Origin: Gemmatimonadota bacterium
Lineage (GTDB): Bacteria; Gemmatimonadota; Gemmatimonadetes; Longimicrobiales; Gaopeijiaceae
Assembly: GCA_028874985.1 (NCBI GenBank)
Contig: JAPPGI010000058.1
Coordinates: 25,673 to 89,672 of the forward strand
Reading direction: 5' to 3'
DNA length: 64,000 nucleotides
The first letter of the stretch is position 1. The number at the start of each line of letters is the position of its first letter. Shown piece by piece: positions 13,522 to 33,642 of the stretch. The notes below the pieces were generated by a model. That model searched no databases. It was given only the letters and a program-made list of their open reading frames with translations, and was not told where the DNA came from. The translations under genes and the position numbers were made by a program.

Positions 13522-15063
13522 TCACTTCTTCAAGCAGATCAGGATCACCCCACCGGCGGCCTCGTCTCCGTAGAGCGCTACGGCCGCAGCACCCTTGATC
13601 ACCTCTAATCTCTCGATGCCCTTGAGATGCGGCCACGGCGTTGGATCCGGCCACGGCGCTGCATTGCCGTCGTCGTCCAGTGCGTTCCCGTGCATTGTGA
13701 CCCGGACGCCTTCGATGATCAGGAGGGGCAAGGGTGGCGACTCAGCCATCCCCGAGAACTTGCCCCCCCACAGATTGTCCCGGTCGGACTGCTTCGGACT
13801 TTCGGCCACGGCTTCGACCATCTCCGCCACCGAGGGCCGGCCCCGCGTGAAGATCCGGATGGCGCCGTTGGCACCCTCGTCGCCGTAGATCTCCCGGGAC
13901 TTCGCACCATTGATCACTTCGACGCGATCGACCACCCCTTCCCTCCTGAGGCCGCTCTCCGACCAGAGCCGGACCGATTCGGGCAGGTCTTCATAGCGCG
14001 CGACAGGCACGTCGTCCACGAACACGAGCGGAGCCGGGTCCGAGACGAACCATTCGGCCAGATAGCCGTCGTAGGAGCCCTGGGTCCATCCGGAAGGTTT
14101 GCCCCGGGGCTCCGGGGCCTGAACCTCGAACGCCTCGTCGATCGCGTCGCCGATTTCCGTCGGCAACCGCACGTCGCACGCCGTCACCAGTGCGCCCACC
14201 GCCACGCAGGCGAGAATGGCCGCGCGGCCCGCACCCAGCTTCTCTTGCTTCTCACTCATCGTCTTCAATCTCCTTTCAAGCAGGCTCCTGGATTTCCCCA
14301 TCGCGGGGACGAATCCCCACCAGCCACGGGACCGGGTTCCCGCGTTCAGGAGGACCGTGCCGTAGTCGGCGACTCCGATCCCCGACGCCAGGACCCGTTC
14401 ATCGCAGTCCATTTCCACCGCGGCGCGAAGCCGCCGGCACATCCACCAGATCGCCGGACTCCATGGGAACACCGCCGCGGCGAGGCCGCCATAGAGCAGC
14501 GCGAGATGGTCCCGGGCACGCGCATGTTCCTCCTCGTGCCGGATGATCGCGTCCCGGACACCCGGCTCAAGCTCCGACACCCATGCGGGGACGACCACCT
14601 TCGCTCTGGTGACGCCGACCAAGGCCGGACCGAAGCGGCGGGAGACGTAGACCGGCGTTCCGGCCACCCCTGTGCGCTCCCAGCGGCGGCGCCTCCAGCC
14701 CATGACCAGCAGCACGCCACCGACAACGAGCATGGCCGTCAGGGACGCGGTGCCCCATGCAAGAGCCGCAATCCTGCTCGGATTCACGCCCCCGGGAACG
14801 GAAAGGGCCGGAGTCACGCTCCGGGCGTCCGCCACAGGTGCTCCGCTGACCAGCGACACGACGGCCGTCGTGGCCTCCAGCACCGGGGGAGCGACCGGCG
14901 CGCGCGTCCTTCCGGCCAGAGGGACTGCCACCGCCAGGGTCAACGCCGCGAGCCAGGCGAACCGGCGCGGCCATCCCGCGGAGACCGCCAACCGCTCCAG
15001 CGCCCATCCGCCAATCGCGACGATCCCGCCGACCAGCGCCGCATACGGAATCCAGGCAATCAT
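13522..15063 (-). CDS. M56 (BlaR1/MecR1-like) family metallopeptidase with C-terminal TonB-plug-like motifs
   Basis: IIRHEEEHARARDHLALLYGG (HExxH-like M56), N-terminal TM helices; C-terminal VDRVEVINGAKSREIYGDEGANGAIRIFTR and IERLEVIKGAAAVALYGDEAAGGVILICLKK. ORF is open to 15087; start at 15063 (MIAWIPYAALVGG) preferred. Confidence 0.8.
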   Translation of the reverse strand: MIAWIPYAALVGGIVAIGGWALERLAVSAGWPRRFAWLAALTLAVAVPLAGRTRAPVAPPVLEATTAVVSLVSGAPVADARSVTPALSVPGGVNPSRIAALAWGTASLTAMLVVGGVLLVMGWRRRRWERTGVAGTPVYVSRRFGPALVGVTRAKVVVPAWVSELEPGVRDAIIRHEEEHARARDHLALLYGGLAAAVFPWSPAIWWMCRRLRAAVEMDCDERVLASGIGVADYGTVLLNAGTRSRGWWGFVPAMGKSRSLLERRLKTMSEKQEKLGAGRAAILACVAVGALVTACDVRLPTEIGDAIDEAFEVQAPEPRGKPSGWTQGSYDGYLAEWFVSDPAPLVFVDDVPVARYEDLPESVRLWSESGLRREGVVDRVEVINGAKSREIYGDEGANGAIRIFTRGRPSVAEMVEAVAESPKQSDRDNLWGGKFSGMAESPPLPLLIIEGVRVTMHGNALDDDGNAAPWPDPTPWPHLKGIERLEVIKGAAAVALYGDEAAGGVILICLKK

Positions 15064-15107
15064 GCCCGCGTCTCCCCCCTTTGCCACAGCACGCTCACGA
15101 GGTTCGG

Positions 15108-16253: not shown

Positions 16254-16438
16254 GGCGCGAGGGCGGGACGAAAGCGAAGCGGGATCGCCGGTCTCGGCAT
16301 TTGGTCGCGGGCAACTGTAGACACTACCATATCCGTCGGTTACACGGCCGGTATCGTTCAAGGTCCGAACGCCGATGTCGTCGACTGCCCGTCCGGCGGC
16401 GTCGGATTGGAGTCTACTCAAAGATAGGGATTCGGCGC

Positions 16439-19400
16439 ATGCGCTACCTCGAGAGCGGTCGGTGGACGGCCGCGCTGCTGCTCCTCTCGCCCATGGCACT
16501 TCCGGCCCAGGAGGCCGGCAAGGACCCCGACCGGGGCCTCCCGCTGGAACCGGCGCACTGGGCGCGCTTCACCACCAGCGAGGGGACCTGGATCTCGCTC
16601 GACGTGAGTCCCGACGGACAGTCGATCGTCTTCGACATGCTGGGAGACCTCTACTCCATGCCCGCTGCCGGAGGCAACGCGACCAGGCTCACCGGCGGCA
16701 TGGGCTACGACATGCAGCCGCGCTTCAGCCCGGACGGAGAACGGATCGCCTTCGTGTCGGACCGGAGCGGCGACAACAACGTCTGGCTCATGCCCGCCGC
16801 GGGAGGCGAGCCGCGGCAGCTCAGCAAGGGGATCGGAAGCCGCTTCCTGTCGCCGGAGTGGATGCCCGACGGCAAGTACGTCGTGGTCTCGAGAGCGGCT
16901 CCCTTCGCCGGACTGGAGAAGCTGTGGCTCTACCACGTTGACGGGGGAACGGGCCTGGAGATGGTCGGAGGGAGCGGCGGCCAGCGCATGCTGGGTGCGG
17001 CGGTGAATGCCGAGGGGCGCTACATCTGGTACGCGCAGCGCTTCGGCACCTGGCAGTACAACGCGATCCTTCCGCAGTACCAGCTCTGGGTCTACGATCG
17101 CAGGTCGGGGACCCGCACGCCCATGAGCAACCGGTACGGGTCGGCCTTCCGGCCCGCTCTTTCGCCGGACGGCACCCTGCTGGCCTACGGGACCCGCGAG
17201 GACGCCGAGACCGGGATTCGGCTCCGCGACCTCGCCTCGGGAGAGGAGCGGTGGCTCGCCTACCCCGTCCAGCGCGACGACCAGGAATCGACCGCGTCGA
17301 TGGACGTGTTGCCGGGGTACTCCTTCACCCCCGGTTCCGACGCGCTGGTCATCTCCTACGGCGGCCGTATCTGGCGGGTGCCGGTGGACGGCGGCGACCC
17401 ACGGGAGATCCCCTTCACCGTCGAGGCCGAGATCGCGATCGGCCCCGAGGTCGAGTTCGAGTACCCGATCGAGGACACGCCGACCTTCACCGTGAAACAG
17501 ATCCGCGACGCGCGTCCCTCCCCCGATGGCGCCCGGATCGCCTTCAGCGCCCTGGACCGCCTTTACGTCGCCGAGTTGCCGGACGGGACCCCGGAGCGCG
17601 TCACCGCCGACGACGTGGGCGAGTTCCAGCCCGTGTGGTCCCCGGACGGGCGTCACATCGCGTACGTGACCTGGGACGACGACAGCGGCGAGGGCCATAT
17701 CCGGCGGGTCTCCTCCGGGGGCGGCTCCGCCACGAACCTGACCACGGAAGCGGCATTCTACCGCGAGATCGCGTGGTCGCCGGACAGCGAGCGGATCGTG
17801 GGGATCCGAGTGGACCGGCGCAACATCCGGGAGTCCCTGGGCATGACCGCCGGGGGGTTGGCCGCGGAACTCATGTGGATCCCGGCGGACGGCGGCCCGG
17901 CAACCACGATCGGACCCACGCAGGGGCGGCGGCGGCCTCACTTCACGCAGGATCCGGACCGCATCTACTACTACGGCTTCGCAAGGGCCGACGCCGTTCC
18001 CGGCTCGCCCACGCCGCCGGCTCCGACCATCGCGCTTTCCTCCGCCAGGTGGGACGATACGGACCGGCGGCGGCACCTGCGGGTTACCGCTCGCGCGGAC
18101 CTGTCGGCCGGCGGTGTGCCCGTCGGCTACCGGTATTCCGAAACGAGCGACCTGGCGATGCCCGAGGTCTTCGACGACGACGAGCCACGCGAACTCATCC
18201 TGCGCCTGGGCGCCGGAACGGTGATGATGGCCCCGCTGGGCGACCTCGCTCTGGCCCGGATAGGCGACGACCTCTATGCGGTCACGGTCCCGGACCTCGG
18301 GGCCACCCTGCCGACGGTCGACGTCACCAAGCCCGATTCGGCCGGAGTCCCCGCCTGGAAGCTGAACCGGCTGGGAGTCGAATTCCCCACCTGGGGGGCG
18401 GACGGACGCACGGTGCACTGGTCGCTGGGCAACGGACTCTTCACCTACGACCTGGACGCGGCCGCGGGCGACCCCGGCTACGAAGCGGCCGAACGGCAGA
18501 TCGCCGTCACCGCCGAGCGTGACATCCCCCGCGGCACGGTGGTTCTGCGCGGCGGGCGGGCCATCACCATGAACGGCGGCGAGATCGTCGAGAACGCCGA
18601 CGTCGTCGTGACGGACAACCGCATCACCGCGGTGTCCGCGGGGCCCGGAGAGGTGCCCGAGGGCGCGCAGGTGATCGATGTCGGCGGCAAGACCATCCTG
18701 CCCGGCTTCGTCGACACGCATTCGCACATGTGGAACCTGTGGGGTGTGCACTGGGAGCGTTCGTGGCTCTACCACGCCAATCTGGCCTACGGTGTCACCA
18801 CCACGCGCGACCCCCAGACCGCCACCACCGACGTGCTCGTCTACGAAGACCTGGTGCGCGCCGGCCGCATGACCGGTCCGCGCGTCTATCACACCGGACC
18901 CGGCGTCTTCTCCCGCGACTTCGTTCGCAGCTACGAACACGCGCTCGACGTGCTCCGCAAGTACAGCCGCTACTACGACACCAAGACCTTCAAGATGTAC
19001 ATGTCCGGCAACCGCCGTCAGCGCCAGTGGCTGATCATGGCCGCGCGCGAGCTCGGCCTGATGCCGACCACGGAGGGCGGGCTGGACTACCGGCTCGACA
19101 TGACCCACGCCATCGACGGCTACCCGGGGATCGAGCACAACCTGCCGATCATTCCGACGTACGGCGATGTGGTCGAACTCTTCGCCACCTCGGGAACGGT
19201 CAACACGCCGACGCTGCTGGTGACGTACGGAGGCCCCTGGGTCGAGAACTACTACTATACGCGGGAGGACGTCTTCGGCGACGAGAAGCTCACCCACTTC
19301 ACGCCGAAGCGCGAACTCGACATCAAGGCGCGGCGCCTGCAGACCGATGGACCGGGGCCCGCCGGGTGGTTCATGGAGGAGGAGTACGTCTTCGACAGGC

Positions 19401-19813
19401 ACTCGGCGTGGCTGAAGGATCTCGTGGAGGCGGGCGGGCGGACCGGAGTGGGCAGCCACGGACAGCTGCAGGGACTGGGCTACCACTGGGAGCTTTGGGC
19501 ACTCCAGGCCGGTGGCATGAGCGAGCACGACGCGCTGCGGGTCGCCACGCTGATGGGTGCCGAGGCGATCGGGCTGGGCGCCGACCTGGGATCGATCGAG
19601 CCGGGCAAGCTGGCCGACCTCGTGATCCTCGACGCCGATCCGCTCGACGACATACGCAACACCAACACGATCGACAAGGTCATGATGAACGGACGTCTCT
19701 ACGACGGCGACACCCTCGACGAGTTGTGGCCCCGGCAACGCGCGGCTCCCTACGAGCCCTGGAGGCACACGGCTCCGGATGTGAGGGCCGGAATCAGGGG
19801 AGGTGAGAAATGA
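16439..19813 (+). CDS. Secreted TolB-like beta-propeller + amidohydrolase protein (copy 1)
   Basis: Signal peptide; WISLDVSPDGQSIVFDMLGDLYSMPAAGGNATRLTGG, FSPDGERIAFVSDRSGDNNVW repeats; C-terminal VIDVGGKTILPGFVDTHSHMWNLWG...GSIEPGKLADLVILDADPLDDI. Confidence 0.9.
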   Translation: MRYLESGRWTAALLLLSPMALPAQEAGKDPDRGLPLEPAHWARFTTSEGTWISLDVSPDGQSIVFDMLGDLYSMPAAGGNATRLTGGMGYDMQPRFSPDGERIAFVSDRSGDNNVWLMPAAGGEPRQLSKGIGSRFLSPEWMPDGKYVVVSRAAPFAGLEKLWLYHVDGGTGLEMVGGSGGQRMLGAAVNAEGRYIWYAQRFGTWQYNAILPQYQLWVYDRRSGTRTPMSNRYGSAFRPALSPDGTLLAYGTREDAETGIRLRDLASGEERWLAYPVQRDDQESTASMDVLPGYSFTPGSDALVISYGGRIWRVPVDGGDPREIPFTVEAEIAIGPEVEFEYPIEDTPTFTVKQIRDARPSPDGARIAFSALDRLYVAELPDGTPERVTADDVGEFQPVWSPDGRHIAYVTWDDDSGEGHIRRVSSGGGSATNLTTEAAFYREIAWSPDSERIVGIRVDRRNIRESLGMTAGGLAAELMWIPADGGPATTIGPTQGRRRPHFTQDPDRIYYYGFARADAVPGSPTPPAPTIALSSARWDDTDRRRHLRVTARADLSAGGVPVGYRYSETSDLAMPEVFDDDEPRELILRLGAGTVMMAPLGDLALARIGDDLYAVTVPDLGATLPTVDVTKPDSAGVPAWKLNRLGVEFPTWGADGRTVHWSLGNGLFTYDLDAAAGDPGYEAAERQIAVTAERDIPRGTVVLRGGRAITMNGGEIVENADVVVTDNRITAVSAGPGEVPEGAQVIDVGGKTILPGFVDTHSHMWNLWGVHWERSWLYHANLAYGVTTTRDPQTATTDVLVYEDLVRAGRMTGPRVYHTGPGVFSRDFVRSYEHALDVLRKYSRYYDTKTFKMYMSGNRRQRQWLIMAARELGLMPTTEGGLDYRLDMTHAIDGYPGIEHNLPIIPTYGDVVELFATSGTVNTPTLLVTYGGPWVENYYYTREDVFGDEKLTHFTPKRELDIKARRLQTDGPGPAGWFMEEEYVFDRHSAWLKDLVEAGGRTGVGSHGQLQGLGYHWELWALQAGGMSEHDALRVATLMGAEAIGLGADLGSIEPGKLADLVILDADPLDDIRNTNTIDKVMMNGRLYDGDTLDELWPRQRAAPYEPWRHTAPDVRAGIRGGEK

Positions 19814-22800
19814 GTGCGCGAGCAATGGCATCGTCCATCCGGCGCGGGCGGTCGGCGGCCGCGCTCGCGGCCCTGTTGCTGGTGTCGGCGGCGGCTCTGG
19901 CGCCCACGGCCGAGGCCCAGTTCAGGGGCGGCGGCGGCCGGCCCGATCCCCTGCCCCTGTGCGCCGCCCGCACAGCCGAGTTCACCGCCGCCGAAGGCAC
20001 CTGGATCTCCCTGGACGTGAGCCCCGACGGGCGGACGATCGTCTTCGACCTGCTGGGCGACCTCTATACCATGCCCGTCACCGGGGGCAAGGCGTCACCC
20101 CTTCTTACGGGAATGGCGTACGAGGTGCAGCCCCGCTTCAGCCCGGACGGCGAGTCGGTCGCATACGTATCCGACAAGAGCGGGGGCGACAACGTGTGGA
20201 CCATGCGGCTGGACCGCACCGACACGACCCAGGTGTCGCGGGGGAATTCGAACCTCTACCTGTCTCCGGAGTGGTCCCCCGACGGCGAGTACATCGTGGC
20301 GAGCCGTTCCGGCGGGCTGGGCGGCGCGGCGCAGCTGGTCATGTACCGGGCGGACCGCGGGTCGCCGATCTCGATCCCGGGATCCAGCTTCCAGAAGAGG
20401 ATCGGGGCGGCCTTCAGCCCGGACGGGCGTCATATCTGGTATGCGGCGGCGTTCGGGGACTGGTCCTACAACGCGACCTTCCCGATCTATCAGCTCTACC
20501 GCCACGACCGCGAGACCGGCGCGACCACCCTGATGACGAATCGCTACGGTTCCGGGATCCGGCCGGCCATCTCCCCGGACGGAAGGTGGCTGGTATACGG
20601 CACCCGCTACAACGCGGACACGGGACTGCGCAAACGCGACCTGGAAACCGGCGAGGAATCGTGGCTGGCCTACCCGGTGCAGCGTGACGAGCAGGAATCT
20701 CGCGCACCTCTCGACGTGCTGCCGGGTTACAGCTTCATGCCCGACGGCTCGGCGATCGTCATCTCGTACGGCGGCAGGATCTGGAGCGTGCCGATGGACG
20801 GAGGCGACCCCTCGGAGATCCCCTTCGAGGTCGAGGCCGAGGTGGCCATCGGGCCAAGCGTCAAGTTCGACTACCAGATCGATACGACCGAGATGGTCAC
20901 GGCCAGCCAGATCCGCAATCCCGTGGCGGATCCCGATGGCGGGCGGATCGTCTTCACCGCCTTCGACCGGCTCTGGATCAAGGACCTGCCGGACGGAGAG
21001 GCGCGGAGGCTGACCGACGCGGACGTGGGCGAATTCCACCCGCAGTGGTCGCGTGACGGCCGGTGGATCGCGTACGTCAACTGGGATGACCGCGATGGCG
21101 GCCACATCATGAAGGTGCCCGCGAACGGAGGCGAACCGGCGCGGCTCACGGCGACCGCGGCGTTGTACTACAACGTGGCCTGGTCCCCGCATGGGGAACG
21201 GATCGTGGCTTCGCGGGGCGCCGCGCGCGACCTGAAGGAGGTGACCGGCTTCTACAGCCCCGTGGGCGGAGAGTTCGTGTGGGTCCCCGCGAGGGCTTCC
21301 GAACCGTCGGAGGCCGAGGTGATCTCACCCACGGGGTTGCGCGACGCGGCCCACTTCGCCGCCGATGAGCCCGACCGCATATACGCCTACAGCCCGCTCG
21401 AGGGTCTGGTGTCATTCCGCTGGGACGGCACCGATGTCAAGCGGCACATGATGATAAGGGGCGGGCAGGGAGTCCCCGGCATCGCCGACCCGCATGTGGA
21501 CCGGTGGGAGTTCCTTCCCCGGCGGGTGTTCCCCTGGCGCAGGCTTCCGGACCCGACGGACCCGGATCCGGCACCGCCGGCCGAGCCGGGATTCCCGTCT
21601 CCGGCGGGTCTGATCATGCTCTCACCGGAGGGTGACCGGGCCTTCGCCCAATTCGGCCGGGACATCTTCGTCGTCGACATGCTGCCCCAGGTCGGCGCCA
21701 CACCTCCCACCATCACCCTGATGAACCTGTCCTCGTCACCGGTGCCCGTGCGGAAGGTGACGGATGTCGGGGGGGAATTCCCCTCCTGGGCGCCCGACGG
21801 GTCGGCGCTGCACTGGGCCCTGGGGAACGTGTTCTTCACCTACGACCTCGACCACGTCGAGGCGGAGGAGGCCGAAGAGAAGGAGACCGCCCATGCGCGT
21901 GCGCTGATCCGGGCGCGGGCGCTGGCGATCACCGACACGCTCAAGGAGAAACGGGCCGAGGCCGACAGCCTCGGGAAGGAAGACGAGGAGGTGTCCGAGG
22001 AACTCGAGGCCGAGATCGTCAGGCTGGCGGCGGATTCGGTGCAGGTGGTGGCCGATTCGTTGATGGCGCGGGCCGATTCCATTCGCAGGGCGGCCGACGA
22101 GGTTGCCGCGAAGGCGCAGGCGGTTCGCGACGGCGACAAGGAGATCCTCGAGGACTCCACCGAGACGTACGAGGCACACGAACGAAAGATCGAGGCCGGG
22201 TTGCCAAGGGATGTTCCGCGCGGGACGGTGGCGCTCACGGGCGGGCGGATCATCACGATGGGCAAGGCGCCCGGCGACACCACCGGTGAACCGCACGTGA
22301 TCGAGAACGGCGTGGTGGTCGTGACGGACAACAGGATCGTCGCCGTGGGGCTTGCCGATTCGGTCGAGATTCCCGACAGCGCCGAAGTCGTGGACGTCAG
22401 CGGCAAGACCCTTGTGCCCGGTTTCGTGGATACACACTACCACGCGCAGTGGCTGGTGCCCGAAATCCATCCCGAGGAGGTCTGGCAGTACCTGGCGACC
22501 CTGTCGTACGGTGTCACCACCACGCGCGATCCCCAGACGGCCGTCACCGACATCCTCAGCTACACCGACCGGGTGCGCACCGGCGGCATGACAGGGCCGC
22601 GCATCTACTCGACCGGCCCCGGCGTCTTCAGCGGCGAGAACATCCGCGACGCCGACCACGCCAGGACGATCCTGCGGAGGTACTCCCAGTACTTCGACAC
22701 CAAGACGCTGAAGATGTACATGACGGGGAACCGCCAACAGCGCCAGTGGATCATCCAGGCAGCCCGCGAACTCGAACTCATGCCGACGACGGAGGGCGGC

Positions 22801-23538
22801 CTCGACTTCAAGATCGACATGACGCACGCGATCGACGGCTATCCCGGCGTCGAGCACAACCTGCCGATCGCACCGATGTACCTGGACGTGGTGGAGGTCT
22901 TCAAGGAGTCGGAGACCACCAACAGTCCGACCCTGCTGGTGTCATACGGCGGTCCCTTCGGGGAAAACCACTTCTACGCGACCGAGGTGGTTCACGATGA
23001 CCCCAAGCTCAACGTCTTCGTGCCCGCGGGGGAACTCGACGCGAAGGCGCGGCGGCGCGGCAGCGGGGGGGGTGGCAGCCCCGGCCGGGCCGGGTGGTTC
23101 CTCGAGGAGGAGCATGTCTTCCCGCGCCACGGCGAGTTCGTAAGGAAGATGCTGGAGAACGACGCGCGGATGGCGGTCGGCAGCCACGGGCAGCTGCAGG
23201 GGGTCGGATACCATTGGGAGATGTGGGCGATGGGGGCCGGCGGTGCGTCGAACCACGACATCCTGCGGGCGGCTACCATCCTGGGGGCCGAAGCGATCGG
23301 ATTCGGGAAGCAGCTCGGCAGCATCGAAGAGGGCAAGTTCGCGGACATCGTGGTCCTCGACTCGAACCCGCTCGACGACCTGCGCAACACGGTGGATATC
23401 CGTTATGTGATGAAGGACGGCCGCCTGTACGACGGGATGACGCTCGACGAAGTGTATCCCGAGCCGCGTGTCCTGCAGCGCGAGCGCGCCCTCGACTCCG
23501 ATCCGGCAAGCGTAGCGGCCGGGATCCGGGAGAGGTAG
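19810..23538 (+). CDS. Secreted TolB-like beta-propeller + amidohydrolase protein (copy 2, with coiled-coil insert)
   Basis: Tandem paralog: WISLDVSPDGRTIVFDLLGDLYTMPVTGGKASPLLTGM...VVDVSGKTLVPGFVDTHYHAQWLVPE...GSIEEGKFADIVVLDSNPLDDL; overlaps copy 1 by 4 nt. Confidence 0.9.
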   Translation: MSARAMASSIRRGRSAAALAALLLVSAAALAPTAEAQFRGGGGRPDPLPLCAARTAEFTAAEGTWISLDVSPDGRTIVFDLLGDLYTMPVTGGKASPLLTGMAYEVQPRFSPDGESVAYVSDKSGGDNVWTMRLDRTDTTQVSRGNSNLYLSPEWSPDGEYIVASRSGGLGGAAQLVMYRADRGSPISIPGSSFQKRIGAAFSPDGRHIWYAAAFGDWSYNATFPIYQLYRHDRETGATTLMTNRYGSGIRPAISPDGRWLVYGTRYNADTGLRKRDLETGEESWLAYPVQRDEQESRAPLDVLPGYSFMPDGSAIVISYGGRIWSVPMDGGDPSEIPFEVEAEVAIGPSVKFDYQIDTTEMVTASQIRNPVADPDGGRIVFTAFDRLWIKDLPDGEARRLTDADVGEFHPQWSRDGRWIAYVNWDDRDGGHIMKVPANGGEPARLTATAALYYNVAWSPHGERIVASRGAARDLKEVTGFYSPVGGEFVWVPARASEPSEAEVISPTGLRDAAHFAADEPDRIYAYSPLEGLVSFRWDGTDVKRHMMIRGGQGVPGIADPHVDRWEFLPRRVFPWRRLPDPTDPDPAPPAEPGFPSPAGLIMLSPEGDRAFAQFGRDIFVVDMLPQVGATPPTITLMNLSSSPVPVRKVTDVGGEFPSWAPDGSALHWALGNVFFTYDLDHVEAEEAEEKETAHARALIRARALAITDTLKEKRAEADSLGKEDEEVSEELEAEIVRLAADSVQVVADSLMARADSIRRAADEVAAKAQAVRDGDKEILEDSTETYEAHERKIEAGLPRDVPRGTVALTGGRIITMGKAPGDTTGEPHVIENGVVVVTDNRIVAVGLADSVEIPDSAEVVDVSGKTLVPGFVDTHYHAQWLVPEIHPEEVWQYLATLSYGVTTTRDPQTAVTDILSYTDRVRTGGMTGPRIYSTGPGVFSGENIRDADHARTILRRYSQYFDTKTLKMYMTGNRQQRQWIIQAARELELMPTTEGGLDFKIDMTHAIDGYPGVEHNLPIAPMYLDVVEVFKESETTNSPTLLVSYGGPFGENHFYATEVVHDDPKLNVFVPAGELDAKARRRGSGGGGSPGRAGWFLEEEHVFPRHGEFVRKMLENDARMAVGSHGQLQGVGYHWEMWAMGAGGASNHDILRAATILGAEAIGFGKQLGSIEEGKFADIVVLDSNPLDDLRNTVDIRYVMKDGRLYDGMTLDEVYPEPRVLQRERALDSDPASVAAGIRER

Positions 23539-23568
23539 CGGTCCGTGGATAGCGCCCCGCGAGCACCG
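23539..23568 (+). repeat. Interspersed repeat, partial copy B
   Basis: CGGTCCGTGGATAGCGCCCCGCGAGCACCG directly after the amidohydrolase stop; 24/30 vs copy A. Confidence 0.55.
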
Positions 23569-23591
23569 CCGTCCGCGCGGGCCGGTTCGTG

Positions 23592-24662
23592 TCAGCGCCG
23601 CGTCCAGATAAGGATGACGCCGCAACCCGCAGACATGGAGTACCGGGCCGGCAAGCCCGCGGACGAAGGGTACACTTCGATTCCGGCCACCGCGTCGGGA
23701 TTCACGAGGTCGTCGATCCCGGCCGCCTCCGTCCCGCCATCGTGAACCAGGAGGTCATCGAGGAACACGCGGGGGTAGCAATACCCGTCCGAGAGAGAGA
23801 AGCGGCCACTGCGGAGCACCACCCTGCGCTGAGTGCCGCTTGCCTCGACCGTGACCCCGGGGAGGCCTGTGAACAGATCCGTCATCTCGCTCGGCGTACG
23901 GGTTTCGATGTCTTCACGATCGAGGAACTTCCCCCAACCGTCCTCCCGCCGCTCGTAGAACCCCGCATCCTGCAAGGCGGCTTCGCGCCTCTCGACAACG
24001 ACTTTCAAGGGCTCCAGATGAACAGGGTCCACGGAAAGCGAAGCCTGCACGCTGGTCATGCGTCCGGGCACTACGCGGACCGTGTCGCGGCGCGTGGCGT
24101 ATCCGATCTGGGCGAACTCGATGATGTGCAGACCCGCTGCCAGCCCGCCCAGCATGAACCCGCCCCGCTCATCGGTGAGAACGCCCCCCCGGCCCACTCG
24201 CACCGCCGCGCCCACCAGCGGAGAATCATCTTCGCTCGTAGTAAGGATACCCATGATGCCCGTCATCAGCCCGCCACCTGCCCGGTCCTCACCGGCTTCG
24301 GGGGCTTCGCGGGCCGGGTGCATCGCCAGCACGAAGCCCCTGTCACGCACGACCGGAAAGTCGTCCACCACGGGGCTGTAGCCCGGGTGGGAGAGTCGAA
24401 TGCGGTAGAAGCCGATCGCGATGGCGTTCAATTCGAACTTTCCCTCGGCGTCCGTTTCGAGCCGGATCTCCGTGCCCTCCACCACGACCACCGCACCCGG
24501 GAGCGGACTGCCCGTCGCCGCATCGATCACCCGGCCGGTGATGCGAACCGTCTTCGGTTCCGGCTCCTGCGCCGCACCCGCGCCCGAGGGGCCGACGAGG
24601 CCGGCCGAGATGAGCGGCAGGAACCCAAGGGCGGCCCGCAAGGCGGGACCCACCGCCACCAC
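23592..24662 (-). CDS. Secreted CarboxypepD-regulatory-like protein with C-terminal TonB-plug-like domain, no barrel (paralog 3)
   Basis: ITGRVIDAATGSPLPGAVVVVEGTEIRLETDAEGKFELNAIAIGFYRIRLSHPGYSP; FLDREDIETRTPSEMTDLFTGLPGV...YCYPRVFLDDLL...AGIEVYPSSAGLPARYSMSAGCGVILIWTRR-stop; GTG start overlaps the paralog 2 stop (TAGTG). Confidence 0.75.
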   Translation of the reverse strand: MVAVGPALRAALGFLPLISAGLVGPSGAGAAQEPEPKTVRITGRVIDAATGSPLPGAVVVVEGTEIRLETDAEGKFELNAIAIGFYRIRLSHPGYSPVVDDFPVVRDRGFVLAMHPAREAPEAGEDRAGGGLMTGIMGILTTSEDDSPLVGAAVRVGRGGVLTDERGGFMLGGLAAGLHIIEFAQIGYATRRDTVRVVPGRMTSVQASLSVDPVHLEPLKVVVERREAALQDAGFYERREDGWGKFLDREDIETRTPSEMTDLFTGLPGVTVEASGTQRRVVLRSGRFSLSDGYCYPRVFLDDLLVHDGGTEAAGIDDLVNPDAVAGIEVYPSSAGLPARYSMSAGCGVILIWTRR

Positions 24663-25840
24663 TACCGCCCCCGGCCCGGCTGGCCGGCGCTGCCGGTAAT
24701 CCTCGTCCAGACTGCGATGACCCCGCAGAACGAGCCCCCCGCGAACTGGGGCGGAAGCCCCGCTTCGGTGTGGTAGATCTCGATTCCCGCGATGGCGTTG
24801 GTATTGAGGAAACTGTCCAGGTGGGCGGGTTCTGATCCGCCGTTTGCCGTGAGGACGCCATCCACGTAGACCCTGGGGAAGCAGCGGTGGTATCCCGGGA
24901 GACCATCGGAGCGTGGGCCAGTTGGAATCCGCAACCGGCCGATGCGCAGCACGACGTACTTTTCGATGCCGTTGAACGGGTCGGGGTAGATCTCCACCCC
25001 CGGAATGCCGGTGAAGAGATCCGTCATCTCGGCGGGCCCTCGGTTCTCGATATCCTGGCGGTCGATGAATCTCCCGAAGCCCATATGCCTGCGGTGGTAG
25101 AAATCCACGTTCTGCAACCTGACTTCGCGTCTCTCGACGGATACCTCGATTGGGTCCAGCGCCACGGGGTCGACGGACAGCGACACCCGGACGTTGGTGA
25201 CGCGGCCGGCCGTGACCCGGATGGTATCGGCCCGCGGGGCGTAGCCGATCATGGAAAACTCGATCACATGCTGTCCGGGAATGAGCCTGTCGAGCAGGAA
25301 CTCGCCCCTCGCGTCCGTAAACGTGCCGATCTGTCCCTGGCCCGCCCGCACGGTTACGCCACCGAGCAGAGCATCCGATTCGTCGGTCAGCACCCCGACA
25401 ATCCCCGTCACCAGCTCGCCATCACTGTGCCCGACCGGTTGCATCGACGTCTCGAAGCCCCCGGTGCGCATGACCGTGAAGTCGCCGACCGCCGGATTGT
25501 ACCGGGGATGGGAGAGTTCGAGGCGATACTCGCCCACCGCGATGCTCGGAACCGTGAACTCCCCCTCGCTGTCGGTTTCGAGCTGGAAGCCCGGCTGGAC
25601 GCTCAGCCCCCTGGATGCAACTGTCACCGCCACTCCGGGGATCGGATCGCCGGTAATCCCATCTACGACCCGGCCCGTGATCGAGACCATCTCCTGGGCC
25701 ACAGCTTCCCGGCCGGAAGTGAGCGGCAGTGCCAGAAGCGGTATCACCGTGGCCCAGATCCATGCCCGGCAGCCCGCCACGCGGGACCGGCAACTCTCCC
25801 GGTTCGCGAATCGCCTAGCCAACGTTCTCCGATCAATCAT
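24662..25840 (-). CDS. Secreted CarboxypepD-regulatory-like protein with C-terminal TonB-plug-like domain, no barrel (paralog 2)
   Basis: VSITGRVVDGITGDPIPGVAVTVASRGLSVQPGFQLETDSEGEFTVPSIAVGEYRLELSHPRYNPAVGDFTVMRTGGFETSMQPVG...RQDIENRGPAEMTDLFTGIPGVEIY...FPRVYVDGVL...CGVIAVWTR. Confidence 0.75.
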   Translation of the reverse strand: MIDRRTLARRFANRESCRSRVAGCRAWIWATVIPLLALPLTSGREAVAQEMVSITGRVVDGITGDPIPGVAVTVASRGLSVQPGFQLETDSEGEFTVPSIAVGEYRLELSHPRYNPAVGDFTVMRTGGFETSMQPVGHSDGELVTGIVGVLTDESDALLGGVTVRAGQGQIGTFTDARGEFLLDRLIPGQHVIEFSMIGYAPRADTIRVTAGRVTNVRVSLSVDPVALDPIEVSVERREVRLQNVDFYHRRHMGFGRFIDRQDIENRGPAEMTDLFTGIPGVEIYPDPFNGIEKYVVLRIGRLRIPTGPRSDGLPGYHRCFPRVYVDGVLTANGGSEPAHLDSFLNTNAIAGIEIYHTEAGLPPQFAGGSFCGVIAVWTRITGSAGQPGRGR

Positions 25841-26157
25841 GTGTTTTCCCTCCTGACGGCCTGCAACGCCTCTGTGATCCCGGGCCATCCCCGAAAAGCT
25901 GCTCAACACCTCGCAAAGCGCCCTCCGGAGGACCGGTGGCGCTCCTCGGCGAAAACCGCGCGACGAGCTTCGCGCCCCCGGATCGCGGTCCCCGCCGAGG
26001 TGACTCGCCGACGCGCCTCGTCACGAGCAGGGTGCGCCCCTCGCCAACTATCATATAGAATCCGGACTACCGGTCGCCAGTCGCGGAAACGCCCCGGGAG
26101 GGCTACGACCCCGGCGGCGCCGCCTGCCCGTACAGCCGACGCCCGCACCTTTCGCTG

Positions 26158-27378
26158 TTAGCCCGGCCCGGTTTTCCGGCTGCCCACGCCCCTCACCCTC
26201 GTCCATATGACGATTACCCCGCAGCGGGCTCCACCGGCCTGGTACTTGGCCGGAAGTCCCGCCGTAGAGGGGTAGACCTCGATCCCGGCGATGGCCGCGG
26301 GAGCGAGCAGGTCGTCCAGCCTGGCCGGATCCGCTCCGCCGCTGTGCGCCAGAAGGTCGTCGATGTACACCGCGGGGAAGCAGCGGTTGTATTCGGGTGG
26401 CTGAAGACCCTTGAACCTCTCTCTTCTTTCCTCGATCTGCTCGTCCGTCAGGGTCCTGCTGCGCCACGGCAGGCGGCCGGACCGCAGCACCACGAACTTG
26501 CCGAGGGAACTCGTGGGGTGCGTAAAGAGTTCCACCCCCGGCATTCCGCTGAAGAGATCCGTAACTTCCAGGGGTCCCCGGTTCTCGATGTCCAGGCGAT
26601 CGATGTACTCACCGAAGCCCACCTGCCTGCGGTGGTAGAAGCCCACCTCCTGCAACCTGGCTTCGCGTCTCTCTACGGAGACGACGATGGGTTCGAGCCC
26701 TACCGGGTCGACGCTCAGCGACACCTCCACGTTGGTGACGCGGCCTGCCGTGACCCGTATGGTGTCGGCTCGAGCGGCGTAGCCGATCATGGAGAACTCC
26801 AGCACGTGCTGGCCGGCGATGAGGTCGTCGAACAGGAACTCTCCCCTCGTGTCCGTAAAGGTGCCCGTCTGTCCCTGGCCCGTCCGTACGGTTACGCCGG
26901 AGAGAGCGTCGCCCGTTGCCGCGTCGGTGAGGACACCGACGATGCCGGTCAGCAGTTCGTCATCTCCGAGCGCGACCGGTTGCATCGAGGTCACGAAGGG
27001 TCCGGCGCGCACGACCGTGAAGTCGCCGACCGAGGGATTGTAGAGGGGGTGCCTGAGTTGCAGCCGGTACTCGCCCACCGCGATGCTCTGCACCGCGAAA
27101 CGCCCCGCGCTGTCGGTTTCGAGCTCGAGGTCCGGCTGGTCGTCGGGACTCCTGGACGCGAAGGTCACGGCCACTCCCGGGATCGGATCGCGGGTGAGCG
27201 CATCCAACACCTGGCCGGTGATGGAGACCATCTCCTGGGCCGCCGCCTCCCGCCCGGAGAAGAGAAGGAGCGCCATCAGCGTCACGGCCGCGGTCCGCAT
27301 GCCCGGGCAGCGTCCCATCGCGCGGGGCCGGCCAGGCCAACCCGCGAATTCCCGAAAGGGTTTTCCTTGATCCAACAT
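26158..27378 (-). CDS. Secreted CarboxypepD-regulatory-like protein with C-terminal TonB-plug-like domain, no barrel (paralog 1)
   Basis: VSITGQVLDALTRDPIPGVAVTFASRSPDDQPDLELETDSAGRFAVQSIAVGEYRLQLRHPLYNPSVGDFTVVRAGPFVTSMQPVA...RLDIENRGPLEVTDLFSGMPGVELF...CFPAVYIDDLL...RCGVIVIWTR. Confidence 0.75.
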   Translation of the reverse strand: MLDQGKPFREFAGWPGRPRAMGRCPGMRTAAVTLMALLLFSGREAAAQEMVSITGQVLDALTRDPIPGVAVTFASRSPDDQPDLELETDSAGRFAVQSIAVGEYRLQLRHPLYNPSVGDFTVVRAGPFVTSMQPVALGDDELLTGIVGVLTDAATGDALSGVTVRTGQGQTGTFTDTRGEFLFDDLIAGQHVLEFSMIGYAARADTIRVTAGRVTNVEVSLSVDPVGLEPIVVSVERREARLQEVGFYHRRQVGFGEYIDRLDIENRGPLEVTDLFSGMPGVELFTHPTSSLGKFVVLRSGRLPWRSRTLTDEQIEERRERFKGLQPPEYNRCFPAVYIDDLLAHSGGADPARLDDLLAPAAIAGIEVYPSTAGLPAKYQAGGARCGVIVIWTRVRGVGSRKTGPG

Positions 27379-27748
27379 TCGTTTTGTCTCCCAAGAGGGC
27401 CTGATATGGTCTCCGTGATCCCCCGGCGGTTGCTTTGGCAGGCCGCGAGTACCTTTCCAGGGGACTTCGCCAACGTATCATACACACTACTCGTCCGTCG
27501 GGTTCACGAACATCGCACCGACCGCCGACGACGGGGCCCGCGCACGACGCTTCGCGCGCGGATTACGCACCCGGTAACGCAATTATCGGGAATCCCGGCG
27601 ACCGTCGCCAGTCGGGCGACCCTGCCGGCCCCACGGAGACCCCCGGGGCCTTGATCCCCGCCTGACTCTCCGCTACCAATGGAATAGGGGTCGGCGACAG
27701 GCCGCCCCCGAAAGGGAAATCACGGCGATTTGTGGCGTATTGCGGCCG

Positions 27749-27857
27749 GGAACAGCTAAAAAGCCACCCGCGGCGACGCGGGTCTTCGATGCCGCCGGAC
27801 ACAAAGCCGGGAGTTCCACCGGAGACCGGCCAACTCCCCGGTCCCGGAAGCTGTTTC
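27749..27857 (+). ncRNA. Structured 5' leader of metH, candidate riboswitch of unassigned class
   Basis: 9-bp long-range pairing GGAACAGCT (27749-27757) / AGCTGTTTC (27849-27857), one G-U; internal ACCCGCG-GCGA-CGCGGGT hairpin (27766-27783, GNRA loop) and CCGGGAGTT/AACTCCCCGG stem enclosing CCGGAGACCGG; 67-175 nt upstream of the proposed metH ATG. Confidence 0.45.
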
Positions 27858-27923
27858 GCCACAAAAGCGTCCATGGGACCCGGCCCGGCCGGATCCCCTA
27901 CACGCCGGGCTCCGGTGAAGGAA

Positions 27924-30900
27924 ATGCGGCATCCAGTGAGACCTGCCAGGGCGAAGACCGGTACGCCGTGGAGGCATCGGCGAATTCGCGCTGTCGACCG
28001 GATCCTCGAAGAGCGCATCCTCGTGCTCGACGGCGCGATGGGAACGATGATCCAACGGTACGGCCTCGGCGAAGCCGACTTCCGGGGCGACCACTTCACC
28101 ACCCACCCCACCCCGCTTCTCGGCAACAACGACCTCCTCTCGCTCACCCGCCCCGACGTGATCGGCGAGATCCACCGCGCCTACCTGGATGCGGGCGCCG
28201 ACATCATCGAGACGAACACGTTCAGCGCCACGCGGCTGCCCATGGCCGACTACGGCGTGGAGGACGCCGTCGGCGAGATCAACCTCGCGGCGGCCCGGAT
28301 CGCGCGGCAGGCCGCCGACGAGTACGCCGCCCGCACCCCGGACCGGCCCCGCTTCGTGGCCGGCATCCTGGGCCCGATGAACCGCACGGCCTCGATCTCG
28401 GCCGACGTGAACGACCCGGGGGCGAGACAGGTCACCTTCGAGGAACTCCGCACGGCGTACGGCGAGCAGGTCAGGGCCCTGATCGCGGGCGGCGTCGACC
28501 TCCTCATGGTCGAGACCATCTTCGACACGCTGAACGCGAAGGCCGCCCTCTTCGCGATCCTGGAGGCGCGGGAGGCGACCGGCCGCGACGTCCCCATCAT
28601 GATTTCGGGCACGATCACCGACCAGAGCGGCCGCACCCTCACCGGCCAGACCCCGGAGGCCTTCTACAATTCGCTCGGGCACGCGGCCCCGCTGTCGTTC
28701 GGGCTCAACTGCGCGCTGGGGCCCGACGCGCTGCGTCCCTACCTGCAGGAGCTGTCCACCGTCTGCGAGAGCCGGGTGAGCTGCCACCCCAACGCGGGTC
28801 TCCCCAACGAATTCGGCGGCTACGACCTGTCCCCCGACGACATGGCGCGCACCATGGGCGAGTTCGCCCGGGCCGGCTTCCTCAACCTCGCGGGCGGGTG
28901 TTGCGGCACCACCCCCGAGCACATCGCCGCGATCGCGGGGGCGGTCGCGGGGGTGGCACCCCGCCGACGCCCCGATCACCCCGTGCGCACCCGCCTCGCG
29001 GGCCTGGAACCCGTGACCATCGGCCCCGACTCGCTCTTCGTGAACGTGGGCGAACGCACCAACGTGACCGGGTCGGCCCGCTTCGCCCGGCTGATCAGGG
29101 ACGGCGACTACGAGGCCGGGCTGGAGGTGGCGCGGCAGCAGGTGCGGGGCGGCGCCCAGATCATCGACGTCAACATGGACGAGGGGCTGCTCGACGCCGA
29201 GGCGGCGATGGTGAGATTCCTGAACCTGATGGCCGCCGAGCCCGAGATCGCCCGGGTCCCCTTCATGATCGACTCTTCGAAGTGGGAGGTGATCGAGGCC
29301 GGGCTGAGGTGCGTGCAGGGGAAGGCGGTGGTGAACTCGATCAGCCTCAAGGACGGCGAGGACGCGCTGCGGGAGAAGGCGCGCCTGGCGCGACGCTACG
29401 GGGCGGCGGTGGTGGTGATGGCCTTCGACGAGAGCGGCCAGGCCGACACCGCGGACCACAAGGTGGAGATCTGCGCGCGCGCCTACGACATCCTGGTGCG
29501 GCAGGAGGGGTTTCCCGCCGAGGACATCATCTTCGACCCCAACGTCTTCGCCGTCGCGACGGGGATCGCGGAGCACAACGAGTACGCGTTGGCCTTCTTC
29601 GAGGCGACGCGCCGGATCAAGGCGAATCTACCCCATGCGCTGGTGAGCGGCGGCGTCAGCAACGTCTCCTTCTCCTTCCGCGGGAGCCACGGGGTACGTG
29701 AGGCCATGCACTCGGCATTCCTGTACCACGCGGGTCTGGCAGGGATGGATATGGGGATTGTAAACGCCGGTGCCATAGCGGTTTATGACGAGATACCCGA
29801 TGAATTGCTCGAAGCGGTCGAGGATGTGCTGCTCAACCGGAACGAGGAGGCCACCGAACGCCTGACGGCCCTGGCGGGCAGCTACCGGGGAAGCTCCGGA
29901 GGGGATACGGACGACCTCTCGTGGCGCGACGCTCCGGTGGAGGCGCGGCTCGGCCACGCGCTGGTCCACGGCGTGACCGACCACATCGAGGCGGACACCG
30001 AGGAGGCCCGGCGGGGGGCGGAGCGCGCGCTGGATGTGATCGAGGGGCCCCTGATGACGGGCATGAACACCGTGGGGGACCTCTTCGGTTCCGGGAAGAT
30101 GTTCCTCCCTCAGGTCGTCAAGAGCGCCCGCGTGATGAAGCGGGCCGTGGGGTACCTGGTGCCGTACCTGGAGCGCGAGAAACCGGCCGGCGGCACGTCC
30201 CGCTCGGCGGGGCGCATCGTGCTCGCCACCGTCAAGGGGGACGTGCACGATATCGGCAAGAACATCGTCGGGGTCGTGCTGCAGTGCAACAACTACGAGG
30301 TCTTCGACCTGGGCGTGATGGTGCCCGCGGAGGTGATCCTGGGGAAGGCGCGCGAGGTGGAGGCCGACATCGTCGGGCTCTCGGGACTGATTACGCCGAG
30401 CCTCGACCAGATGGTGCACGTGGCCTCCGAGATGGAGCGCACGGGAATGGACATGCCGCTTCTGATAGGCGGCGCCACCACTTCGCGGGTCCACACCGCG
30501 GTGAAGATCGAGGAGAGGTACTCGGGGGCCACCGTTCACGTGCTCGACGCCTCCCGGTGCGCGGCGGTGGCGGGCAAGCTCCTGGACCCGGTCAGCCGGG
30601 CTCCGTACTCCGCCGGCATTCGCGAAGAGTACGCCGCCGTTCGCCGGAGACGGCAGGCCCGGGGCAAGCGGGCTCCGCTCCTGGCGCTCGAAGAGGCCCG
30701 CGCGAACCGGCTGAGGCCGAATTGGAGCCGGTACCGCCCCGTCCGGCCCACCTTCACCGGCGACCGGGTCTTCCCGAGCGCTCCGACGCGCCCCGTCGCC
30801 GGTGGCCACGGCCCATCGGCCGCGCCACCGGCCCGGACCCGCCCCTCCTACGACCTGGACGAACTCACCGGACGGATCGACTGGACCCCCTTCTTCCACA

Positions 30901-31799
30901 CCTGGGAGCTCAGGGGCACCTTCCCCGACATTCTCGCCGACCCGGATACCGGGCCCCAGGCCACCTCCCTGCACGAGGACGCACTCGCACTCCTCGGCCG
31001 CATCCGGCGCGAGGGGCTGTTGGCCGCGCGGGCGGTGGTGGGACTCTACCCGGCAAACGCGGTGGGGGACGACATCGTCTTCTACTCCGACGAGTCTCGG
31101 AGCGACGTGCTGGCGGTGTTGCCATGCCTGCGCCAGCAGTTCGCCAAGGGAAGCGCGCGGCCGAACCTGTGCCTGGCGGATTTCGTGGCACCGGCGGGCT
31201 CGGGGGTGGCCGACTGGGCCGGGGCGTTCGTGGTCACCGCCGGGGAAGGCGTCAACGAGCTCTGCGCCGAATTCGAAGCCGCGGGGGACGACTACCGGAG
31301 CATCCTGGCGAAGGCGCTCGCAGACCGCCTCGCCGAGGCCTTCGCCGAACGGATGCACGAGCGCGTGCGCAGGGAGTTCTGGGGATACGCGCCGAAGGAG
31401 TCTCTGACGAACCGGCAGCTGATCGCCGAGGAGTACGGCGGAATCCGGCCGGCGCCGGGGTATCCGGCCTGTCCGGATCACTCGGGCAAGCGGACCATCT
31501 TCGAGTTGCTGGACGCGGAGAGGATCGGGGTGACGCTGACCGAGAGTTGCGCCATGTTCCCCGCCGCGTCCGTATCCGGGCTCTATGTCGGGCACCCGGA
31601 CAGCTTCTATTTCGGGGTCGGACGGGTCGGTCGCGACCAGCTCGAGGACTACGCGCGGCGCAACGGGATGGGCGTGGAGGAAACCGCACGGTGGCTGGCG
31701 CCGAACCTGGCGGAGGAGGACGGGACCGCGGGCTCGGGCCGCGTGGTGACGGCGGCGGGCGCGGGCGCGGGCGGGCGGGCGGAGGGCGGCGGTGGCTGA
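27924..31799 (+). CDS. metH: Cobalamin-dependent methionine synthase
   Basis: [17 protein letters not shown]...[16 protein letters not shown] (Hcy domain), [16 protein letters not shown] (pterin domain), [37 protein letters not shown] (B12 domain), [40 protein letters not shown] (activation domain). Start codon uncertain. Confidence 0.95.
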
Positions 31800-33642
31800 C
31801 CTGCGTGCGATGCTCGGCGAGGGGCGGGCTCTCGTGGCCGACGGCGCGATGGGCACGATGCTCTACGAACGGGGCGTCTTCCTGAACGTCTGCTACGACG
31901 AACTCAACGCCACGCACCCCGAGCTCATCGCGGAGGTGCACGCCCGGTACCTCCGAGCCGGAGCGGAGATCCTGGAGACCAACACCTTCGAGGCGAACCC
32001 GGTCAAGCTCTCGTCGTACCGGCTGGAGGACCGAACCGAGGAGCTGAACCGGCGCGCCGCCGGGATCGCAGTGCGGGCGGCGGGTGGCCGGGCCGCGGTG
32101 GCGGGCGCGATCGGGCCGCTGGGCATCCGCGTCGAGCCGCTGGGGCCGACATCGCTGGAGGAGGCCCGGGAGTACTTCGGCCGCCAGGTGGACGGGCTGC
32201 TGGAGGGCGGGGTCGACGGGTTCATCCTGGAGACCTTCTCGGACCTGGCCGAACTGGAGCAGGCGCTGCGGGCGGTGAGGAGCCGGTGCGGCCTGCCCGT
32301 GATCGCCCAGGTGACGGTGGAGGGCGACGATGGGAAGACCGCCTCGGGCGTCTCCGTCGAACAGGCGGCGCGCGCGGCCGACGAGTGGGGCGCCGACGCG
32401 GTTGGACTCAACTGTTCGGTCGGCCCGGCCGTCGTGCTGGAGGCGCTGGAACGCATGGCCCGGGTCACCTCCCTCCCCCTCTCCGCCCAGCCCAACGCGG
32501 GACAGCCCGTTGCCGTGCGCCAGCGCAAGATGTACCTCACCCGGCCCGACTACATGGCCCGGTACGCGCGCCGCCTGGTCGACGCGGGGGCGCGCATCGT
32601 GGGCGGCTGTTGCGGCACCACCCCGGAGCACATCCGCAGCATCGCCGAGCATGTCAGGGCGAGCCGGCCACGCGCGTCGCCGGTGCGGATCACACGCCGG
32701 GCGGCCCCCGATGTGCGCGGCGGGCCGGTCCGGCCGCTGGCGGCGCGTTCGACCCTGGGCCGCCGCCTCGCGGACGGCGACTTCGTCACCTCGGTACAGG
32801 TGCTGCCCCCCCGCGGATGGAACACCGAAGCCCTCGTGCAGGACTGCCGCGCCCTGGCCGCGGCCGGCGCCGACGTGATCGCCGTGCGGGAGGACCGCGG
32901 CGCCGCCCGGCTGGGTGTGTTCCCCACCGCCGCCCTGATCGCGCGCTCGTGTCCGGGCGTCGAGCCGCTGGTCCACTACACCTGCCGCGACCGCAAGCTC
33001 CCGAGGATGATCAGCGATCTCCTGGGCGCGGCGGCCACCGGCATCCACAACGTCCTCCTCCTCACCGGCGACCCCCCGGGTCCCGCCCCCTACCCCGACT
33101 ACCGGTCCGTCGTCGACGTCGACTCGATCGGCCTCACGAATGTCGTCACGGGTCTGAACAACGGGGTCGACCCCTCCGGCAACGATCTCGGCGAGCCGGC
33201 GGGCTTCGTGGCGGGCGTCGCCCTCGACCAGTCGGGGCGCGACCGGAGGCGGGAACTGGCGCGATTCCGCTGGAAGGTGGACGCCGGAGCCGACTTCGCC
33301 GTGACCCGGCCGGTCTTCGACACCGGCGCGCTGCGGCAATTCCTGGCCGAGGTTGAACGGAAGATCCCGGTGATCGCGGGAATCCTGCCGCTCGAGAGCT
33401 CCCGGCAGGCGGAGTTTCTGCAGAACGAGGTTCCGGGCGTTCATGTGCCGGACCGGGTGGTGGAGCGGATGCGCCGGGCGGAGGGGCGGGGTTCGGGCCG
33501 GGCCGCCGCCGAAGGCGTGGAGATCGCGTGCGGGATCGCGGGAGAGCTGCGGGGCCGGGTCGCCGGGGTGCAGATCTCGGCCGTTCGCGAGGGGGTGGGA
33601 GCCGTGTTGGGGGTGGTGGAGGGGCTGGGGGTCCGTGGATGA
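31792..33642 (+). CDS. Bifunctional homocysteine S-methyltransferase / 5,10-methylenetetrahydrofolate reductase (YitJ-like)
   Basis: [35 protein letters not shown]...[18 protein letters not shown]; then [17 protein letters not shown]...[35 protein letters not shown]...[21 protein letters not shown] (MTHFR domain). Confidence 0.9.

Follow-up and report, generated by a model that had tools for sequence, protein, structure and literature searches.

In TonB-dependent outer-membrane receptors, the plug domain is usually treated as inseparable from the transport pore. In the closest described systems, the SusC/RagA-type receptors (TIGR04056; PF13715 or PF13620, followed by PF07715 and a barrel), a signal peptide, a CarboxypepD_reg domain, a TonB box and a plug stand in that order ahead of a 22-strand barrel. 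The subject of this study is a set of three tandem genes located within a 64,000-nucleotide stretch of DNA from a Gemmatimonadota bacterium (contig JAPPGI010000058.1, assembly GCA_028874985.1; hereafter, the window), the products of which display the same order of elements, with a TonB-box-like segment at the place of the box, and share the plug fold, but possess no barrel, so that transport of a substrate across the outer membrane is not expected of them. These proteins and their relatives, referred to here as free Cys-plugs, are further distinguished by a pair of cysteines and by a terminal signature, C-G-x-[IV]-x-[IV]-W-T, both of which are missing from the barrel-bearing plugs examined, and by falling into a separate clade.

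Partial parallels to free Cys-plugs are also found in proteins of other kinds. Certain receptors, such as the myxochelin receptor MxcH (NF038079), combine a TonB C-terminal domain (TonB_C) with a plug in a single chain, as do certain fused members of the present family, and the TonB_C part of those members matches the N-terminal part of the NF038079 model; that model, however, places TonB_C ahead of a complete receptor, whereas in the fused members, which are confined to one branch, it follows a barrel-less plug. Plug-bearing peptidases of the M56/BlaR1-like type resemble free Cys-plugs in placing a barrel-less plug within a non-receptor protein, but are membrane peptidases that contain half-plugs and no Cys pair. 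A cluster of minimal, lipoprotein-like plugs encoded beside SusC and SusD (cluster c6) likewise represents a free-standing plug-like module, but one that differs in having a lipobox-like N-terminus, no CarboxypepD_reg domain and no Cys pair, and in forming a separate clade.

Three barrel-less plug genes and their cysteine pair

A sequence-only reading of the window had described three adjacent genes on the same strand, each of which encodes a pair of CarboxypepD_reg domains between a signal peptide and a plug with no barrel, and that description agrees with the open reading frames and with Pfam. The corresponding features are listed below; the Plug family (PF07715) has a cut-off of 23.9 bits, which genes 1 and 2 exceed and below which gene 3 falls.

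23592..24662, minus strand: gene 1, exported protein with two CarboxypepD_reg domains and a barrel-less plug, 356 amino acids, GTG start (open reading frame and Pfam)
24662..25909, minus strand: gene 2, architecture as gene 1, up to 415 amino acids (open reading frame and Pfam)
26158..27378, minus strand: gene 3, architecture as gene 1, 406 amino acids (open reading frame and Pfam)
23628..23924, minus strand: plug domain of gene 1 (PF07715, 26.2 bits)
24764..25066, minus strand: plug domain of gene 2 (PF07715, 25.8 bits)
26260..26604, minus strand: plug domain of gene 3 (PF07715, 20.1 bits, below cut-off)

Each protein begins with an N-terminal hydrophobic stretch that, as read by eye, is followed by an AxA-Q type site, and contains two CarboxypepD_reg stretches (Pfam E-values of 1e-24 to 3e-27); a WTR motif lies 1-12 residues before the end of each reading frame, with no barrel after the plug. 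Pfam found no TonB_C, transmembrane or STN domain in any of the three. A location as lipoproteins was considered and set aside, since lipobox-like sequences are few among 83 members of the family and none is convincing for the window genes. The true start of gene 2 is probably at MIDRR, inside the listed frame, and its stop codon shares one base with the GTG start of gene 1 (TAGTG), an overlap that suggests translational coupling. The three proteins display pairwise identities of approximately 50%. Comparison of the window genes with their nearest relatives gave nonsynonymous (dN) and synonymous (dS) divergences of 0.19-0.21 and 0.66-0.69, and comparison of two closer relatives in other genomes gave a dN of 0.06 and a dS of 0.38. 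Because close relatives show dN/dS near 0.2-0.3, the three genes are maintained under purifying constraint, and decaying sequence is ruled out for them.

The C-terminal module of the window genes has, by structure prediction, the plug fold that the sequence-only reading had assigned to it. An AlphaFold model of the gene 1 module, for which 16 sequences of the window and of fetched loci were aligned, reached a predicted local distance difference test score (pLDDT) of 83.7 and a predicted template modelling score (pTM) of 0.82, with the strand and helix order of a plug. When this module was compared with PDB structures by Foldseek, 51 matches reached E<=0.001, and 50 of 50 among the matches listed were TonB-dependent transporters (TBDTs), including PfeA, CirA, FecA, BtuB, FhuA and SusC, with a probability of 1.00 and template modelling scores by query length of 0.49-0.64. 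A sequence search of the PDB with the module alone gave no significant match. The full-length model depicts two beta-sandwiches and the plug, with a pTM of 0.41 and an unreliable relative placement of the domains.

Two signature sites, C-x-P-x-V-x-[VL]-D and C-G-x-[IV]-x-[IV]-W-T, are both present in all three window genes, and contribute the following cysteines.

23778..23780, minus strand: gene 1 Cys295, signature cysteine
23622..23624, minus strand: gene 1 Cys347, signature cysteine
24881..24883, minus strand: gene 2 Cys343, signature cysteine
24725..24727, minus strand: gene 2 Cys395, signature cysteine
26380..26382, minus strand: gene 3 Cys333, signature cysteine
26221..26223, minus strand: gene 3 Cys386, signature cysteine

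The observation that a Cys pair is common to all three proteins extends well beyond the window: both cysteines are found in 102 of 106 distinct barrel-less modules (neither in three, and a single one in one), as against 0 of 12 barrel-bearing plugs with either cysteine, although the approximately 80 better-scoring loci that were fetched and read favour high scorers, and the frequency may be somewhat inflated. The three modules without cysteines comprise the M56 half-plug of the window together with a pair of receptor-adjacent plugs, and in the tree this pair falls outside the Cys clade. Both cysteines are present in nine of ten fusions with TonB_C, and neither is present in the tenth (L146). 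Joint presence or absence of this kind is the pattern expected from a disulphide, and because the proteins are exported, DsbA-like proteins occur in 21 of 21 genomes searched, and L146 is without both cysteines, it is plausible that the pair forms such a bond. Mutual information, calculated for strand pairing and for the disulphide, was uninformative, since the key columns are invariant.

The plugs had also been proposed to be free-standing rather than parts of split receptors, and no barrel partner was found for them. No barrel gene adjoins the three genes, the downstream neighbour of gene 1 being a convergent amidohydrolase. Of the barrel matches in the window's genome that have no plug match nearby, some are truncated at the edge of a contig (C56, C80) and the others lie in open reading frames of 965-1085 amino acids, which have room for an upstream plug, and no complete plug-less barrel gene was seen in that genome. 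An apparently split arrangement was encountered elsewhere, on the Adhaeribacter swui plasmid NZ_CP055154 (L149), where genes for a plug half and a barrel half overlap by 4 bases, in what could be a frameshift.

Breadth, descent and TonB-related features

A profile search with the module in a sample of 200 Gemmatimonadota genomes gave matches in 157 of them, at up to approximately 20 per genome, a count that includes weak matches, some of which may be ordinary receptor plugs. By these sequence comparisons, free Cys-plugs constitute a large family common to most of the sampled genomes, with the window trio among its members. Among members scanned with Pfam, CarboxypepD_reg was found in 72 of 72, and Plug, at E<=0.001, in 59 of the 72; the reading frame ends 0-13 residues after the module in nearly all fetched loci (approximately 100 sequences). 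A fourth copy in the window's genome (C81:1716-2735) displays the Cys pair as in the window genes. Because the same architecture recurs across the phylum, that of the three genes is not a matter of chance, and the triplication noted in the sequence-only reading endures as three tandem copies, not as an isolated event: it represents a local expansion of a phylum-wide family. Searches of plasmids returned a single member from Gemmatirosa, on plasmid NZ_CP007129 of the cultured species Gemmatirosa kalamazoonensis (KBS708), and half of a receptor from Adhaeribacter. No description of the family was found in the open-access papers searched.

Some members display additional C-terminal sequence. In one case (L108:5535-6851, plus strand), the Cys-plug is followed by a beta-rich tail of 157 amino acids that resembles a small outer-membrane barrel, and that has neither a Pfam match nor similarity to the small outer-membrane protein cluster c7. 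Four others (L027, L028, L107 and L119) carry a short C-terminal hydrophobic segment (for example, PFSWARLAVGVGFLAAGFLLTR), which is possibly an anchor or a sorting signal.

A tree of 113 plug modules, built on a short alignment and with a root that is not known, places its 87 Cys-plugs on one side of a single branch with support of 100/100, and the split retains a value of 96 in the Shimodaira-Hasegawa-like approximate likelihood-ratio test (SH-aLRT) when the columns of the Cys and Trp residues are removed along with those adjoining them. The tree supports, but does not prove, one origin for Cys-plugs, in a clade apart from barrel plugs. Because the order of signal peptide, CarboxypepD_reg, box and plug is that of SusC-type receptors, the simplest explanation of that origin would be that such a receptor lost its barrel once, and kept its CarboxypepD_reg domain or domains, its TonB-box-like strand and its plug.

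Free plugs carry a TonB-box-like segment, L-x-P-[ILV]-x-V-x-[VA], which follows the final CarboxypepD_reg strand and precedes the plug. In 99-100% of 80 aligned sequences, the three alternating positions of this segment are occupied by hydrophobic residues. The alignment places it in the window genes as follows.

23991..24017, minus strand: gene 1 TonB-box-like segment, LEPLKVVVE
25133..25159, minus strand: gene 2 TonB-box-like segment, LDPIEVSVE
26671..26697, minus strand: gene 3 TonB-box-like segment, LEPIVVSVE

At the aligned place, neighbouring TBDTs display the TonB boxes LEGVIVTG, LEELVVTG and LSEIVVTG, and the receptor at window positions 41407-43614 reads LAPIVVSALR, as compared with LAPIVVTALR in several free plugs.

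In one locus, L126, the plug is followed by a TonB C-terminal domain, and a search with this protein gave approximately 49 matches (by hand count) that span both the plug and TonB_C, in 39 genomes, all of them in family f5. Among the scanned fusions, PF03544 was found in 10 of 10 and TIGR01352 in 8 of 10. The f5 proteins read in this study (L126 and L139-L148) unite CarboxypepD_reg, a Cys-plug and TonB_C within a single exported polypeptide. The window's own genome contains at least 12 TonB_C matches above cut-off, and TonB partners would therefore exist there even without fusion.

Genomic neighbourhood

The plug genes of the window face two large hydrolase genes, which are followed on the other side of the locus (27732-33642, plus strand) by a methionine-synthase-like gene adjoining a gene that resembles homocysteine methyltransferase and methylenetetrahydrofolate reductase (MTHFR), both read from translation.

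19810..23538, plus strand: PD40 propeller and amidohydrolase, convergent with the plug genes; in related genomes, its relatives apparently share an operon with plug genes (Pfam and gene neighbourhoods)
16301..19813, plus strand: second PD40 and amidohydrolase, in tandem with the first (Pfam)

These tandem PD40-propeller amidohydrolases comprise 1170-1242 amino acids, and their genes overlap by 4 bases. Elsewhere in the window's genus, some species have plug genes and PD40-amidohydrolase genes that alternate along the same strand, apparently as one operon (L021/L060, L022/L061 and L063), and other plug genes adjoin PD40-amidohydrolases and S9 peptidases; outside the genus, the neighbours vary. 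The linkage may indicate the pathway that the plugs serve in the window's genus, where a functional connection with secreted amidohydrolases and peptidases is probable. An enrichment of free plugs near genes for TBDTs or SusD was considered and set aside, as the 15 of 83 loci concerned do not strongly exceed a roughly estimated genome density, and a recurring locus that comprises SusC, SusD, a small outer-membrane protein, a plug and a lipoprotein is limited to one sub-group.

Plug-like modules of other kinds lie near some of these genes. The genes for small lipoprotein-like proteins of 135-185 amino acids that consist of a minimal plug-like module (L087, L094, L099, L103, L106, L108 and L132) often adjoin a SusC-SusD pair and the gene for a small, beta-rich protein of outer-membrane-like character, and a Cys-plug gene lies close by. 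Within the window itself, positions 13522-15087 (minus strand) encode an M56 (BlaR1-like) membrane peptidase that ends in two half-plug segments, PLVFVDDV...GANGAIRIFTR and PLLIIEGV...AAGGVILICLKK, and that has full-length relatives in three genomes (G098, G064 and G053). Rfam identified no RNA element in window positions 23000-32000.

Candidate functions of free plugs

The reading favoured here, tentatively and with somewhat less than even confidence, is that free Cys-plugs are an exported, barrel-less plug family of single origin, probably clamped by cysteines, that serves TonB as a soluble partner in the periplasm. A plug on its own would require some other stabiliser, a part in which the Cys pair probably replaces the barrel, and the free plug would still offer a TonB-box-like strand, which a TonB C-terminal domain could take up by beta-augmentation; towards TonB, the protein would thus be an adaptor, a competitor or a client under mechanical load. 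In the f5 branch, where a TonB C-terminal domain is joined to the plug chain, both halves of such a partnership would be contained in one. We infer TonB binding, an adaptor role and a client pathway for free plugs, and because of the TonB-box-like segment and the plug-TonB_C fusions, their partners are expected to lie within the TonB system. The sequence-only reading had suggested that free plugs could be scaffolds, decoys or ligand-binding parts of an unrecognised system; its plug fold, missing barrel and Cys pair have stood, its isolated triplication has not, and the proposed role can be narrowed, with moderate confidence, to that of a pore-less component of a TonB system.

Several observations weigh against partnership with TonB. 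The pTM of 0.41 for the full-length model lends no support to a particular domain arrangement or to an exposed box; the TonB box consensus is loose, and the box-like segment could be simply inherited sequence; fusions with TonB_C are seen only in family f5, and not in family f1, to which the window genes belong; and free-plug loci within approximately 6 kb of TBDT genes (15 of 83) indicate at most a weak enrichment. A rather unlikely alternative is that free plugs serve as periplasmic modules for binding ligands or proteins, with no TonB role, for example as substrate-binding or chaperone partners of the neighbouring amidohydrolases and S9 peptidases. Such a role would agree with the interleaving and adjacency of these genes in the window's genus, and with the behaviour of the FepA plug, which in isolation still bound its ligand at 5 uM (PMC11658791), but that synteny is confined to one genus and gives way to varied neighbours elsewhere, and the retained TonB-box pattern and the TonB_C fusions would be left unexplained.

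The plug-bearing M56 peptidase at window positions 13522-15087 and its full-length relatives suggest that this phylum might instead have put plugs and TonB_C to further use as sensory domains in the periplasm; for the free plugs, a sensor or signalling role is nevertheless quite unlikely, as the three genes encode no transmembrane or STN domain, their operon includes no M56 partner, and the M56 half-plugs are without the Cys pair. A purely structural role, as periplasmic or surface envelope proteins, would suit the numbers of matches per genome (up to approximately 20), the presence of one to several CarboxypepD_reg repeats, the 157-residue beta-rich tail of L108 and the C-terminal hydrophobic segments of four members, yet the conservation of the box pattern, the plug core and the Cys pair is stricter than a structural part would appear to demand, and the TonB_C fusions again have no place in it, which makes it a distinctly improbable account. 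That the genes are broken or split TonB-dependent receptors is very improbable and was rejected: apparent split receptors do exist, as on the Adhaeribacter plasmid, where a plug half is directly followed by a barrel half (WP_317175599/WP_317175598), but the free plugs display dN/dS of about 0.2-0.3 in relatives, an end point conserved in approximately 100 sequences and membership of a single clade, with no barrel gene adjoining the trio and, among the barrel genes seen in the genome, none that is complete and yet plug-less.

A wider and more speculative proposal, itself unlikely, is that Gemmatimonadota run a pore-less, TonB-linked periplasmic system, in which soluble, disulphide-clamped, box-bearing plugs, some of them with a TonB_C of their own, would interlink or join TonB and would transmit or buffer force to non-channel clients. 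It is debated whether TonB unfolds the plug or displaces it with its fold intact, and natural barrel-less plugs with a candidate disulphide, together with a branch that is fused to TonB_C, would provide soluble material for questions of how plug and TonB interact. The existence of the family suggests that TonB-linked functions may extend beyond transport.

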